Positions 2,960 through 10,081 of a stretch of DNA of 21,220 nt are shown here, piece after piece. Where the stretch lies: positions 1 to 21,220 of the IMG/VR virus record IMGVR_UViG_3300047409_000204, one strand, 5' to 3'. Source of the DNA: a virus. How positions within the stretch are numbered: position 1 is the first letter of the stretch; each line of letters opens with the position of its first letter. The notes under the pieces are model-generated. The model did no database searches. It worked only from the letters and a program-made list of their open reading frames with translations, and was not told where the DNA came from. Made by a program: the position numbers and the translations under genes.

Positions 2960-3126
2960 GCAAGGTTCGCCTGCGGGCCACGATCACCGTCGAGTACGAG
3001 GTGGACCCGAACGACTACGACGGGGCGCATCCGGAGTCGATCGCGCTGATCGACGAGGAGAACGTGGACCCGATCGAGTTCGTCATGGACCACTGCCCGA
3101 AGCTGATCGTCGAGGTGGTCGAGTGA
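2956..3126 (+). CDS. 56-residue acidic hypothetical protein
   Basis: It begins with a beta-strand pair (MSKVRLRATITVEYEVDP) and continues with an acidic stretch (NDYDGAHPESIALIDEENVD), then a helix and a last strand (KLIVEVVE). Small acidic strand-helix-strand proteins of this kind are common in phage early regions and have no assigned function. It overlaps its neighbours by four bases on both sides (ATGA in, GTGA out). Confidence 0.7.
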   Translation: MSKVRLRATITVEYEVDPNDYDGAHPESIALIDEENVDPIEFVMDHCPKLIVEVVE

Positions 3127-3254
3127 CCTCCCCTCGCTGTGACCGTTGCGGTTCCAGCCCCCTCGTGCGTTTCGGCCTCTCTCCGGCTCTGTGTGGGTCC
3201 TGCTGGGTGTTCTTGCGTCGTGAGGCACGCAAGGCCGGGAGCGTGCCCGCATGA
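3123..3254 (+). CDS. 43-residue zinc-ribbon protein
   Basis: The GTG start overlaps the previous TGA (GTGA), and the stop overlaps the methyltransferase ATG (ATGA). Two CxxC knuckles, CDRC at residues 6-9 and CGSC at 24-27, are spaced as in a minimal zinc ribbon. A basic C-terminal helix follows (FLRREARKAG). It may bind nucleic acid or a protein partner. It lies directly before the methyltransferase and could assist it, which is inference from position. Confidence 0.7.
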   Translation: MTSPRCDRCGSSPLVRFGLSPALCGSCWVFLRREARKAGSVPA

Positions 3255-4378
3255 GCGTCCTGGACCTGTTTGCTGGCCCCGGCGGCTGGGACGTTGCCGC
3301 CGAGCGGCTGGGAGTCAAGCCGGTCGGCCTGGAGTGGGACCAGGCGGCGTGCGACACGCGGCGCGCGGCCGGTCTGCGAACGATGCAGTGCGACATCGCC
3401 GCCGTCGACTTCGCGTCCGGCTGGCACGACATGCACGTCGATGGCTTGATCGCCTCGCCGCCGTGCCAGGGCTTCTCGATGGCGGGCAAGGGGAAGGGGC
3501 GTGCGGACACGGAGCAGATCATCGCCGCCGCCCACGAGCTTGCAATGGGCCACGACACCCGCGCCACCCGCGAGTGGGCCGACCCGCGCTCTCCGCTGGT
3601 GCTGGAGCCGATCCGGTGGGCGGCAGAGTTTCGCCCTCGGTGGATCGCGCTGGAGCAGGTCCCGGCCGTGCTGCCGCTGTGGTCGGAGTTCGCCCAGATC
3701 CTCGGGACGTGGGGCTACTCGACGAGCGTCGGTCTGCTGAACGCCGAGCAGCACGGGGTTCCGCAGACCCGGAAGCGCGCGATCCTCGTCGCCCACCGTG
3801 ATCGCCAGGTGTCGCTGCCGACGCCGACGCACAGCCGCTACCACTCCCGGAGCCCGGAGCGCCTGGACGAGGGCGTGGAGAAGTGGGTGTCGATGGCGGA
3901 GGCGCTGGGATGGGACCCCGCGGGTGTTGACAACACCCGCGGGGTCCGTCGCACGCCGGGCGGTAACGAGTTCAGCGCGGACCGGCCGTCGTGGGGTGTG
4001 ACGAGCAAGACCCGCTCGTGGTTCGTCGCCAACGCCAACGCCAACGCCACCCGGCGCCCGGTTGGCTCCCCGGCTCCGACGATCACCGCTGGGCATGACT
4101 CGGGGGACCGTCATTGGGCGTATGACCGACCGGCCACCACGGTCATCGGCTCGTTCTGCCCCGACGTGATCGCGGCTCCGGGGTATCGCACTAGGGGTGG
4201 CGTTTCTCGGCAGAACGCGCCGAGCTCGGTCCGCGTCACCGTCGAGGAGGCCGCGTGCCTCCAGTCCTTCCCGCCCGACCACCCGTGGCAGGGCAGCCGC
4301 ACCAAGCAGTTCGAGCAGGTCGGGAACGCAATACCAGTCCTATTGGCGGAAGCCATTCTCCGGGAGGTAGCGGTCTAA
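3251..4378 (+). CDS. DNA cytosine-5 methyltransferase
   Basis: A 375-residue enzyme that transfers a methyl group from S-adenosylmethionine to C5 of cytosine. Motif I DLFAGPGG (residues 5-12) binds the cofactor. Motif IV SPPCQGFS carries the catalytic Cys72. Motif VI is EQV (E135) instead of the usual ENV. Motif VIII is QTRKRA (172-177), and motif X is QVGNAIP (356-362). Residues about 190-330 form the target-recognition region and include PAPTITAGH and PATTVIG segments typical of Dcm-type phage enzymes. The target sequence cannot be read. It probably protects phage DNA from host restriction. A 35-base perfect palindrome lies inside the gene at 3913-3947. No cognate restriction gene is seen nearby. 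Confidence 0.92.
   Translation: MSVLDLFAGPGGWDVAAERLGVKPVGLEWDQAACDTRRAAGLRTMQCDIAAVDFASGWHDMHVDGLIASPPCQGFSMAGKGKGRADTEQIIAAAHELAMGHDTRATREWADPRSPLVLEPIRWAAEFRPRWIALEQVPAVLPLWSEFAQILGTWGYSTSVGLLNAEQHGVPQTRKRAILVAHRDRQVSLPTPTHSRYHSRSPERLDEGVEKWVSMAEALGWDPAGVDNTRGVRRTPGGNEFSADRPSWGVTSKTRSWFVANANANATRRPVGSPAPTITAGHDSGDRHWAYDRPATTVIGSFCPDVIAAPGYRTRGGVSRQNAPSSVRVTVEEAACLQSFPPDHPWQGSRTKQFEQVGNAIPVLLAEAILREVAV
3913..3947. repeat. 35-base perfect palindrome inside the methyltransferase gene
   Basis: Arms of 17 bases (3913-3929 and 3931-3947) are exact reverse complements around a single central A at 3930. It encodes residues about 222-233 (DPAGVDNTRGVR) at the start of the target-recognition region. 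The arms read GGACCCCGCGGGTGTTG and its complement. Such a long perfect arm is far beyond chance for this window length. Confidence 0.9.
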
Positions 4379-4728
4379 TGCCGCGCTACCAGAAGTTCAA
4401 GATCGCTGGCAAAACGGTGCAGGCGCACCGTGTGATCTACGAATCCACCCAAGGACCCATTCCGGGTGGTTGGCACGTCCATCACATCGATGGCGACTCG
4501 CTCAACAACTCGCCGTCGAACCTCCAGGCGCTCCCCCCCGGCGAGCACTCTCGCATCCATAACGACAGGCACCCCCGAACCAAGGAGTGCGAGGTTTGTG
4601 GTGGGTCGTATGAGCCCGCGCCGACGAAGCGCAAACGGGCGAAGACCTGCTCGTACGACTGTGCCCGCGTGCTCATGTCGCGCGCCGCCATAAGGCGTGA
4701 GGCGGAGAAGCGGGAGGTGGCGTTGTGA
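4378..4728 (+). CDS. HNH endonuclease with C-terminal zinc knuckles
   Basis: A 116-residue protein. The ATG shares a base with the methyltransferase stop (TAATG), and GGGAGG lies about ten bases upstream. Residues 16-61 hold the HNH_3-type core: HRVIYE, then HVHHIDGDSLNN (H35, H36, D38, N43, N44), then NLQAL and HSRIH (H57, H61). The tail has CEVC (71-74) and CSYDC (91-95), a second zinc site seen in free-standing phage HNH enzymes. It cuts or nicks DNA. It could be a homing endonuclease inserted beside the methyltransferase, or a working part of the early cassette; its full integration into the overlap chain favours long residence. Confidence 0.9.
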   Translation: MPRYQKFKIAGKTVQAHRVIYESTQGPIPGGWHVHHIDGDSLNNSPSNLQALPPGEHSRIHNDRHPRTKECEVCGGSYEPAPTKRKRAKTCSYDCARVLMSRAAIRREAEKREVAL

Positions 4729-5062: not shown

Positions 5063-5267
5063 CGGCTACCTGCACAGCGATTCGCTGCTCGTGAAGCACC
5101 TCCTGGCCCGTATGACGCCGGAGCAGCGCGCACCCCTGCTCGCCGCCCAGCCGGAGGTCCAGGCGCTTCAGAAGGCACGGGACATGCTGTGGCTGCGGAT
5201 CGGCATGTGCGGCAACGAGGGCAGCGAGGGCGACCTGCTGGACATCTACCGGGACGGGGACTCCTGA
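5055..5267 (+). CDS. 70-residue hypothetical protein
   Basis: It starts at ATG 5055, within the end of the previous gene (eight-base overlap), and its TGA shares a base with the resolvase ATG. The sequence is mostly helical: MTPEQRAPLLAAQPEVQALQ, then ARDMLWLRIGMCGNEGSEGD, with an acidic C-terminus (DLLDIYRDGDS). No family is recognised. Its direct coupling to the resolvase gene suggests joint expression. Confidence 0.65.
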   Translation: MDDGYLHSDSLLVKHLLARMTPEQRAPLLAAQPEVQALQKARDMLWLRIGMCGNEGSEGDLLDIYRDGDS

Positions 5268-5719
5268 TGCGTTTTGTCGGCATCGACCCTGCCGCCTCGA
5301 AGGGCATCGCGCTCGTCAGCATCGGTGAAGCCAAGTCGGCGATCGTCCACACCTCGCCGGTGTTCAAGGTCTCGGAGGCCCAGCGCCTCGTCGCCATCCG
5401 CCAGTGGGTGAACCACCACACGCCGAAGTCGTCGGTGTGCGTGCTCGTCGAGAAGCAGTTCCAGGGCAAGATCCTCCCCGCCATCGCCGCCGTGTGCGTC
5501 GAGGGCTCGCAGGCCGCGGCACCGGGGGCGGTGGTGCTGGAGATGATGCCCTCCTCGTGGCGCCTGGCGGTGTCCGGCTCGGGGCGGATGAGCAAGGAGC
5601 AGGCGATCCTCCTCGCCGCCGAGTACGGGGTGCCGGCGCAGGACGACCTCGCCGAAGCGCTCTGCATGGCGGTTGTTGCCAGGCGCAGGTGGCGTGAGGC
5701 GACGGACGGGTTCACATGA
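5267..5719 (+). CDS. RuvC-like Holliday junction resolvase
   Basis: A 150-residue RNase H-fold nuclease. FVGIDPAASKG (residues 3-13) gives the first catalytic Asp (D7). VLVEKQFQGK (59-68) gives E62. The C-terminal QDDLAEALCMAVVA (125-138) supplies the final acidic pair (D126 or D127, with E130). This is the order seen in RuvC-type phage resolvases, which cut four-way junctions and branched replication products before packaging. Its place just upstream of the terminase fits that job. The start at ATG 5267 (TGATG overlap) is chosen because the fold begins at residue 3. Confidence 0.85.
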   Translation: MRFVGIDPAASKGIALVSIGEAKSAIVHTSPVFKVSEAQRLVAIRQWVNHHTPKSSVCVLVEKQFQGKILPAIAAVCVEGSQAAAPGAVVLEMMPSSWRLAVSGSGRMSKEQAILLAAEYGVPAQDDLAEALCMAVVARRRWREATDGFT

Positions 5720-8248: not shown

Positions 8249-10081
8249 GTGGACCGGTTCCAGGTCACACCGGGGCTCGTCTCGTTCGAGGTCGACAGCG
8301 GCAAGTCGGTGACGGTGACGAACATCGGTTCGGCGACCGTCTACGGCTCGCCCGACGCGATGTTCCCGAACGTCGCCGCCGCTGCCTGGACGCTCGCGCC
8401 CGGTGCATCCCGTGTTGAGGATCAGGGTCCGGTGTGGGTGCGGACGGCGGATGGCACCTCGTCGGTGCTGACGCTGGAGTTCATCGCGTCGGGAACGGTG
8501 ATCGACGTGGGGAGCGGTCTTCCCTCTTCGGGGGTAAGTGCGACAGCCCTTGCCGCCGCCGCCAAGCGTGCGGGTTCGCTGTTCCGTGGTCAGCCGGTCG
8601 TCGCAACGCGTGGCAACGGGGCGATAGCTTTCGGGGCGACCACGGGCACCACCGCCTCGGGGTCCTCGTCGGACGGGACCGCCCAGAAGATGATGGTCCG
8701 CCAGGTCCTCACGGCCACCAGCGACGCCATCGACCTGCGCCTGGTTCTCGGCAACTACGCCGCCTACTTCGCGGGCCTGAACGACATCACCGTGACCGCG
8801 GGCGTCGAGGTCGGGGGCAGCGTCCCGTTCACCTCGCAGTTCTCGGCACCGAACACCGGGGCCGATGTCTTCGGCGTCACGTTTGGTGGCAAGGCCGCCG
8901 TGGTGATTCCCGGCGGCGCGTCGAGCAAGCACGTGGTGTCGGACCCGGTTCCGCTGAGGATCACGAAGGGCCAGCGGTTCGCCGTGCGGCTGTTCGTCAC
9001 CGTCGCGAACGCCGGGGAGAAGATCCCGCTCGCCCGCCAGGCGGCAGGCTTTGGCGTCGGCGACGGCGTCTACTACAACGACCTGGCCGTCGACCTCACG
9101 CAGGCCGTGACGAACTTCGGTACGCCGGGCGTGCTGGCGTGCTACGCCCCGGTGTGCATTCTCGGGACGCCGCTGGACGGGGTGTTCCCGATCGTCGTCG
9201 TGGCGGAGGGCGACTCCATCACGCAGGGGACGAGCGACCTGAACCAGGAGAACTACGGCTGGGTGGAACGGTGGCTCGCCGGGGCCGGCGTCGCGGTCAT
9301 CAACTCCGGTCGCGGCGGCGGAACCGCTGCGGACATCGTGACTTCGCTGCCGCGCCAGCAGCAGTTCCCGCTCATCAGCGGCTGCTCGTCCATGGTCTGC
9401 GCCTACGGCCGCAACGACGTGTCCGGCGGCACCGCCCTCGCCACGATCCAGGCGAACCTCATCAAAACGTGGAAGTACGCCGCCGACCTCGGGATCAACG
9501 TCAAGCAGACGACGATCACCCCGCGGTCGCAGTCCACCGATGTCTTCATCACGGTTGCCAATCAGTCGCCGAACGCTCTCTCGCACGACGAGATCCGCAT
9601 TCCGCTGAACGCATGGATCAGGGACGGCGCACCGATGCTCGCCGGGGTCGCCGTCGCCACCGGCTCAAGCGCCGGAGGCACGCTCCGCTCCGGTGCGACC
9701 GGCCACCCGCTGACCGGGTACATCGAGATCGCCGACCCGGTCGAGACGGCTCGCGACTCCGGGAAGTGGAAGACGGGCGCGGAGGGCACCTGCACCACCA
9801 CCAGCGGCTCCCCGACCCTGACCGTAGTCACGGCCTCGTCGGGTACGTGGCAGGTCGGGCAGAAGATCGTCGGGACCGGCATCCCCGGCAGCACCTACGT
9901 CGGCAGCGTCGGGGCGGGCACGATCGGCCTCGTCAACTCGCTCGGCTCGGCCGCGAACGCCACCGCGACGGCGACCGGAATCGTCATCGGCGCACCGTTC
10001 ACCGACGACGGCGTCCACCCCAACCGCTGGGGTCACGACCGCATCACCGCGTCGCTGCCGGCGGCCACGATTCTCACCTGA
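8249..10081 (+). CDS. SGNH/GDSL-hydrolase tailspike or fibre protein
   Basis: A 610-residue protein starting at GTG 8249 with GGAGG eight bases upstream. The N-terminal ~90 residues are a beta domain, then a jelly-roll-like region follows (about 105-310). From about 315 the SGNH hydrolase fold begins. Block I is EGDSITQG with nucleophile S323. A Gly-rich block II follows (NSGRGGGT). Block III is GRNDV with N389, and block V is DDGVHPN with D587 and H590. All four catalytic blocks are intact. A beta segment with TGIPGSTYVGSV, as in phage fibre repeats, is inserted before block V. Such enzymes remove acyl esters, often from surface polysaccharide, so it probably acts during adsorption. Its place between terminase and portal is unusual. 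Confidence 0.85.
   Translation: MDRFQVTPGLVSFEVDSGKSVTVTNIGSATVYGSPDAMFPNVAAAAWTLAPGASRVEDQGPVWVRTADGTSSVLTLEFIASGTVIDVGSGLPSSGVSATALAAAAKRAGSLFRGQPVVATRGNGAIAFGATTGTTASGSSSDGTAQKMMVRQVLTATSDAIDLRLVLGNYAAYFAGLNDITVTAGVEVGGSVPFTSQFSAPNTGADVFGVTFGGKAAVVIPGGASSKHVVSDPVPLRITKGQRFAVRLFVTVANAGEKIPLARQAAGFGVGDGVYYNDLAVDLTQAVTNFGTPGVLACYAPVCILGTPLDGVFPIVVVAEGDSITQGTSDLNQENYGWVERWLAGAGVAVINSGRGGGTAADIVTSLPRQQQFPLISGCSSMVCAYGRNDVSGGTALATIQANLIKTWKYAADLGINVKQTTITPRSQSTDVFITVANQSPNALSHDEIRIPLNAWIRDGAPMLAGVAVATGSSAGGTLRSGATGHPLTGYIEIADPVETARDSGKWKTGAEGTCTTTSGSPTLTVVTASSGTWQVGQKIVGTGIPGSTYVGSVGAGTIGLVNSLGSAANATATATGIVIGAPFTDDGVHPNRWGHDRITASLPAATILT

Follow-up and report, generated by a model that had tools for sequence, protein, structure and literature searches.

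The window, i.e. the whole stretch of DNA analysed here, comprises 21,220 bases of an IMG/VR virus record that is classed as linear, a class that often corresponds to a fragment. Tailed-phage genes are present in the record (P22-like portal, terminase, major head protein), and a long protein between the terminase and portal genes (8249-10081) contains a GDSL-lipase-like domain whose score lies just below the Pfam cut-off. The features around the palindrome described below are:

3251..4378, + strand: C5-cytosine DNA methyltransferase gene, 375 aa (PF00145, E 3.2e-37; phrog_116, E 7e-65)
3908..4036, + strand: TRD cassette, approximately residues 220-262, of an ancestry unlike that of the preceding codons (segment identities; blastn homology break)
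3913..3947, + strand: perfect palindrome of 35 bases with 17-bp arms and a 1-base centre (folds to -34.1 kcal/mol, z -7.5)
3913..3929, + strand: left arm, coding (W)DPAGV(D), variable linker from the catalytic half to the TRD; putatively the derived (copied) arm
3930..3930, + strand: centre base A (codon GAC, D); T (GTC, V) in L012, L016, L024 and L039
3931..3947, + strand: right arm, coding (D)NTRGV(R), conserved start of the TRD; putatively the source arm
4375..4728, + strand: HNH endonuclease gene, overlapping the methyltransferase stop codon (PF13392, E 1.5e-15)
5267..5719, + strand: RuvC-like Holliday junction resolvase (phrog_159, E 1e-7), the resolvase of the initial annotation

Phage C5-cytosine methyltransferases combine a conserved catalytic half with an exchangeable, variable recognition region. 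Besides the PF00145 match, the window gene possesses both the SPPCQ and the GVPQTR catalytic motifs. The palindrome occupies codons 221-233 (W-D-P-A-G-V-D-N-T-R-G-V-R), at the joint between the conserved catalytic half, which ends in SMAEALGW, and the recognition region, which begins with NTRGxRxTxGGNEF. Further downstream the TRD contains a perfectly repeated CGCCAA hexamer in 3.8 copies (4027-4049), coding for NANANA. The adjoining HNH endonuclease gene may encode a companion nuclease, or it may be an independent gene of the homing type.

The palindrome reads GGACCCCGCGGGTGTTG-A-CAACACCCGCGGGGTCC, with 17 exact pairs flanking one unpaired base, as the initial annotation had described it from the sequence; the placement of NTRGVR in the conserved start of the recognition region is likewise confirmed. 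The longest other perfect arm in the window is 11 bp (loops of up to 12). The probability that all 16 tested pairs match is approximately 5e-6 when residues are fixed and codons are drawn by local usage. The palindrome is real and, as had been claimed, beyond chance. Pairing is possible with no other codons than those present, among them the less-used GGT and GTT. In single-stranded form the 17-bp arms on paper fold into 16 bp with a 3-nt loop (-34.1 kcal/mol). Palindrome-free relatives carry unrelated residues of equal length at the site of the left arm (W-xxxxx-V-NTRG), and NTRG itself is conserved in more than 30 homologues that lack the palindrome. An intrinsic terminator is not supported, as no T-run follows the stem, and neither a promoter nor a match to an Rfam covariance model was found at the palindrome.

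Homologues at the NTRG site

A scan with the palindrome core recovered the viral contig L012, and a separate protein-motif scan, blind to pairing, recovered 26 viral and 13 actinobacterial loci. Core matches in three further viral contigs (L013-L015) lie in three unrelated places and, by our estimate, do not exceed chance for a collection of this size; they were discarded. The motif (P/A)AG(V/I)xNTRG occurs, among the loci of the motif scan, only in the window and four contigs. A codon-neutral search for the PAGV-NTRG pattern in 84,980 bacterial and archaeal genomes gave no match, and a search of 396 actinobacterial genomes returned the known hit only.

The methyltransferase of L012 is 52% identical to that of the window over 284 residues and has a perfect palindrome at the same codons (P for complete pairing given the residues = 2.5e-6). 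Its outer bases are not those of the window (GCT..AGC instead of GGA..TCC) yet pair, and they encode L/E in place of the residue pair D/V. The centre base is A in the window and T in L012, with perfect arms in both; this is either an inverted spacer or a single transversion, which a one-base flip cannot tell apart. L016 possesses a near-perfect palindrome with one mismatch and one further compensatory pair. The palindrome of L024 is partly decayed while its residues are nearly kept, and L039, with nearly identical residues, forms no stem. Folding energies are -34.1 (window), -34.1 (L012), -35.2 (L016), -18.1 (L024) and -4.6 kcal/mol (L039), and for L039 189 of 200 shuffles fold at least as well as the native sequence. 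In the five-sequence alignment, three of the 17 pairs are changed on both sides and none by a one-sided G-U step; the observed level of paired double changes is reached in 8 of 500 shuffles. Judged by these energies and pair changes, pairing has been kept or re-made in some lineages and lost in others.

Pairing is thus not strictly required, since L024 and L039 lose it with nearly the same residues, and these two sequences depart from the behaviour of a functional conserved RNA hairpin, in which pairing is kept where residues are kept. They also leave unsupported the proposal of the initial annotation that codons had been selected to build the palindrome: unpaired arms with the same residues, named there as the finding that would count against it, are largely what L024 and L039 present. 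The comparison of related genes proposed there shows compensatory outer pairs in L012 and L016; those of L012 alter residues.

In a tree of the catalytic half, L012 (there L087) and L016 (there L061) fall inside a 63-row clade with support 100/99 and the window falls outside it, i.e. the three genes with an NTRG palindrome are not sisters. Residues 186-219 of the window gene are nearest to Microbacterium phage Min1 and L097 (76-79% DNA identity), and its TRD block (220-262) to the types of L012, L024, L001 and L103. Homology in blastn to Min1, SM23, MaGuCo, JuneStar and FuzzBuster stops at window position 3914, the left edge of the palindrome. The window gene is, by these comparisons, a mosaic; segment identities to candidate relatives are mostly 50-79% at the DNA level, too low to place the event on one branch. 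With the boundary of the mosaic at the palindrome, the PAGV-NTRG piece may have spread through TRD exchange and been re-homogenised afterwards.

Palindromes elsewhere in related genes

Some related methyltransferase genes carry palindromes with arms of 16-37 bp and spacers of 1-15 bases, in frame and at sites that differ between phages. L024 (= L062) contains two, longer than any other palindrome in 200 kb of that phage record. The first has 36-bp arms over catalytic motif IV (SPPCGTFSAAGK) at 3050-3130 (L062:5172-5252); its left arm encodes LARRGERPARRG, at a position where the linker of relatives is shorter and unrelated. The second has 37-bp arms at the last TRD module, 3904-3989 (L062:6026-6111). 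L039 (= L060) has, at its last TRD module, perfect 30-bp arms around a 15-base loop (bases 1058-1132, numbered from the start of the methyltransferase match). Further arms measure 24 bp in L064, 21 bp in L040 (at LTEKTRSW), 19 bp in L065 and 17 bp in L098. L060, L062 and L064 thereby possess three different palindromes in one structural place, just before the last catalytic motifs; in L072, the closest relative of L064 in the tree, this module is wholly absent. Four of the four complete genes of one clade (L060, L061, L062, L065) contain at least one long palindrome, in differing places, and L095 of the same clade has no stem, nor have most homologues.

Palindromes at different sites differ in sequence. 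With the exception of L098, each combines a motif that relatives conserve with the reverse complement of that motif, placed in a variable linker; the L098 palindrome looks like the correction of a pre-existing imperfect repeat. A search seeded by L098 alone recovered a single additional relative. Codon alignments show an equal-length in-frame replacement for the L065 palindrome against L067, and five codons added in frame for the motif IV palindrome of L062 against L060 and L061. The pattern of one old and one new arm is clear for both L062 palindromes and for L065, and in the window it emerges only by comparison with NTRG homologues without PAGV. The codon register of the centre varies between sites, so that a new peptide is not the common factor. 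L029 (9064-9267) contains nested, repeat-like copies of a zero-loop palindrome, TCAGCATGACCCCCGGGGGTCATGCTGA, in one region.

A census of perfect palindromes with arms of at least 16 bp covered 94 loci and 936 kb. It yielded eight in 123 kb of methyltransferase DNA, two in 630 kb of other coding and eight in 183 kb of non-coding DNA, the rate for other coding DNA being approximate because a purpose-written gene caller delimited it. Methyltransferase and other coding DNA differ with a Fisher p of 2e-5, and more weakly (3 versus 2, p 0.03) when the four seed genes are removed. Shuffling synonymous codons within each gene gave an expectation of 0.4 palindromes against nine observed, near-perfect ones counted. 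In six phage records, the window and five others picked for carrying a methyltransferase palindrome (50-200 kb scanned in each), that palindrome is the longest found. A phage-wide excess of palindromes is rejected, as those of the methyltransferase gene stand out from every other palindrome in the scanned records that carry them.

A further 79 contigs, sampled independently and encoding more distantly related enzymes (93 kb of methyltransferase DNA), contained no perfect palindrome of this size, where approximately six were expected at the rate of the first sample, and one imperfect, near-perfect case (L258). Family-wide enrichment is refuted by this sample; because of it, the excess is limited to a subset of actinophage C5-cytosine methyltransferase genes.

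Origin of the palindrome

Template switching, in which a short stretch is copied as its reverse complement beside itself, was first proposed from phages (Ripley 1982, cited in PMC8604942), and E. coli work has addressed template-switch (quasipalindrome-associated) mutations (PMC7202029). In a study of yeast coding sequences, arms were made identical, spacers inverted and several residues altered at once, with recurrence at sites (PMC8604942). Template switching can furthermore give rise to perfect hairpins and preserve them through changes that look compensatory (Monttinen and Loytynoja, PMC8794818). The window, with its 17-bp arms and 1-base centre, has the (near-)perfect inverted repeat with a short spacer by which such events are recognised. 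Its palindrome probably arose through a template switch during replication that the variable recognition region could tolerate, with decay or re-homogenisation afterwards; it is most likely a trace left by mutation and not a signal.

During copying of the methyltransferase gene, the nascent strand would fold back, or switch to the other strand, so that a reverse-complement copy of the conserved NTRG-coding stretch would replace the five-codon variable linker just upstream, with the length of the linker unchanged. As GC-rich codons like these seldom yield a stop in reverse complement, the frame would stay open. Variable linkers and the TRD would tolerate such changes, leading to survival here and purging elsewhere. 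Thereafter the arms would decay, as may have happened in L024 and L039, or be made identical by further switches, which would produce paired changes and a flipped centre base. We infer the switch in the window, and its direction, from this pattern.

The methyltransferase palindromes share with template-switch mutations (PMC8604942, PMC7202029) identical arms, recurrence at sites and coding changes that come in clusters of several bases and residues; the flipped centre base may be a spacer inversion. The yeast events changed up to five residues (PMC8604942), whereas the methyltransferase genes have gained whole new arms of 16-37 bp, at several different sites within one phage gene family. As in the hairpins of Monttinen and Loytynoja (PMC8794818), one event would give a perfect stem and re-copying would give compensatory changes; those hairpins lie in microRNA and rRNA genes, whereas here the DNA is protein-coding phage DNA and the new arm alters the protein.

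Template switching alone leaves unexplained why this gene rather than others is affected. For three lineages to have one centre, either the site must descend from a common source via TRD exchange or switching must have struck a single seed repeatedly. The obvious candidate reason for such events to be kept would be diversifying selection for recognition specificity. A wider claim is possible and rather doubtful: a soil actinophage lineage would have diversified the variable region of its methyltransferase by repeated backward copying of the gene's own conserved motifs, which would aid changes of specificity against host restriction; lying where catalytic half and TRD meet, the palindrome may also promote TRD exchange.

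Weighing of alternatives

The strongest rival is a functional mRNA hairpin, i.e. a stable coding stem selected to restrain methyltransferase expression or to pause the ribosome or polymerase, for which the exact place would matter little. Stems of -34 to -35 kcal/mol in the window, L012 and L016, the compensatory pairs and the long palindromes in all complete genes of one clade (L060, L061, L062, L065) agree with it. The NTRG stem is lost in L024 and L039, however, although most residues are kept; no stem is found in L095 of that clade or in most homologues, no Rfam model matches, and a conserved motif joined to its reverse complement tells how the sequence arose, not what it does. We regard a selected hairpin as unlikely. 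As to the earlier suggestion of a strong RNA hairpin that slows translation, the strength of the fold (-34.1 kcal/mol) agrees with it, and the loss of pairing in L024 and L039 speaks against it.

It is considerably less probable that the palindrome is a protein-binding or recombination site favouring the exchange of TRD cassettes, be it an operator by which the methyltransferase regulates itself or a cruciform that the RuvC-like resolvase cleaves. The coincidence of the mosaic boundary with the left end of the palindrome would fit such a site, but this boundary is also simply the end of the conserved half. The palindrome core has no second copy in the window at up to two mismatches, and, in contrast to a sequence-specific site, the outer sequence varies between phages with pairing kept. 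A RuvC-like gene is located 1.3 kb downstream, but a search of seven other records, six of which contain methyltransferase palindromes, recovered no member of the family. Both the self-regulatory binding site and the resolvase target envisaged in the initial annotation, which had also proposed to look for the arms elsewhere, are thereby left without support.

That PAGV-x-NTRG is a conserved protein motif whose codons are complementary by coincidence is very improbable. In register, the reverse complement of NTRG does read PAGV, and most of the motif is present in five homologues; against this stand the pairing probabilities given the residues (window and L012), the absence of the pattern from the bacterial and archaeal genomes and the recurrence of palindromes at unrelated motifs of the gene. 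An assembly or amplification artefact is scarcely credible even with records that are mostly metagenomic fragments, because open frames and colinear homology run on through both sides of the palindromes inspected, and equivalent palindromes occur in independent records.

Rickettsia palindromic elements are in-frame palindromic insertions in genes that form dispersed families of related repeats. They share with the methyltransferase palindromes the presence of palindromic DNA in frame within protein-coding genes, but each methyltransferase palindrome is built of local sequence, with no copies elsewhere in the window. A mobile palindrome of this type, with several sequence-related copies at different loci, is not supported, as the window has one site and sequences differ between sites. 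Compared with the known variation of the TRD in phage C5-cytosine methyltransferases, the variation here would partly consist of backward copies of the gene's own motifs, beyond exchange between genes.

Template switching itself is a known mechanism; what would be new is its recurrence across variable parts of a single phage methyltransferase lineage, and the repeated building of new protein segments by template switching in one phage gene family is undescribed in the literature searched. If the clustering in recognition regions reflects usefulness, template switching would be a simple source of multi-residue novelty in the conflict between phage and host. Compensatory pairs together with a very stable stem inside a gene need not mean that selection acts on an RNA or DNA element there.

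Towards the left end of the record, the window further contains a 32-nt inverted repeat (134-165 and 302-333) that is 81% complementary, with 136 nt between its arms and the core CCTGGACGAAGTCCAAAGG / CCTTTGGACTTCGTCCAGG.
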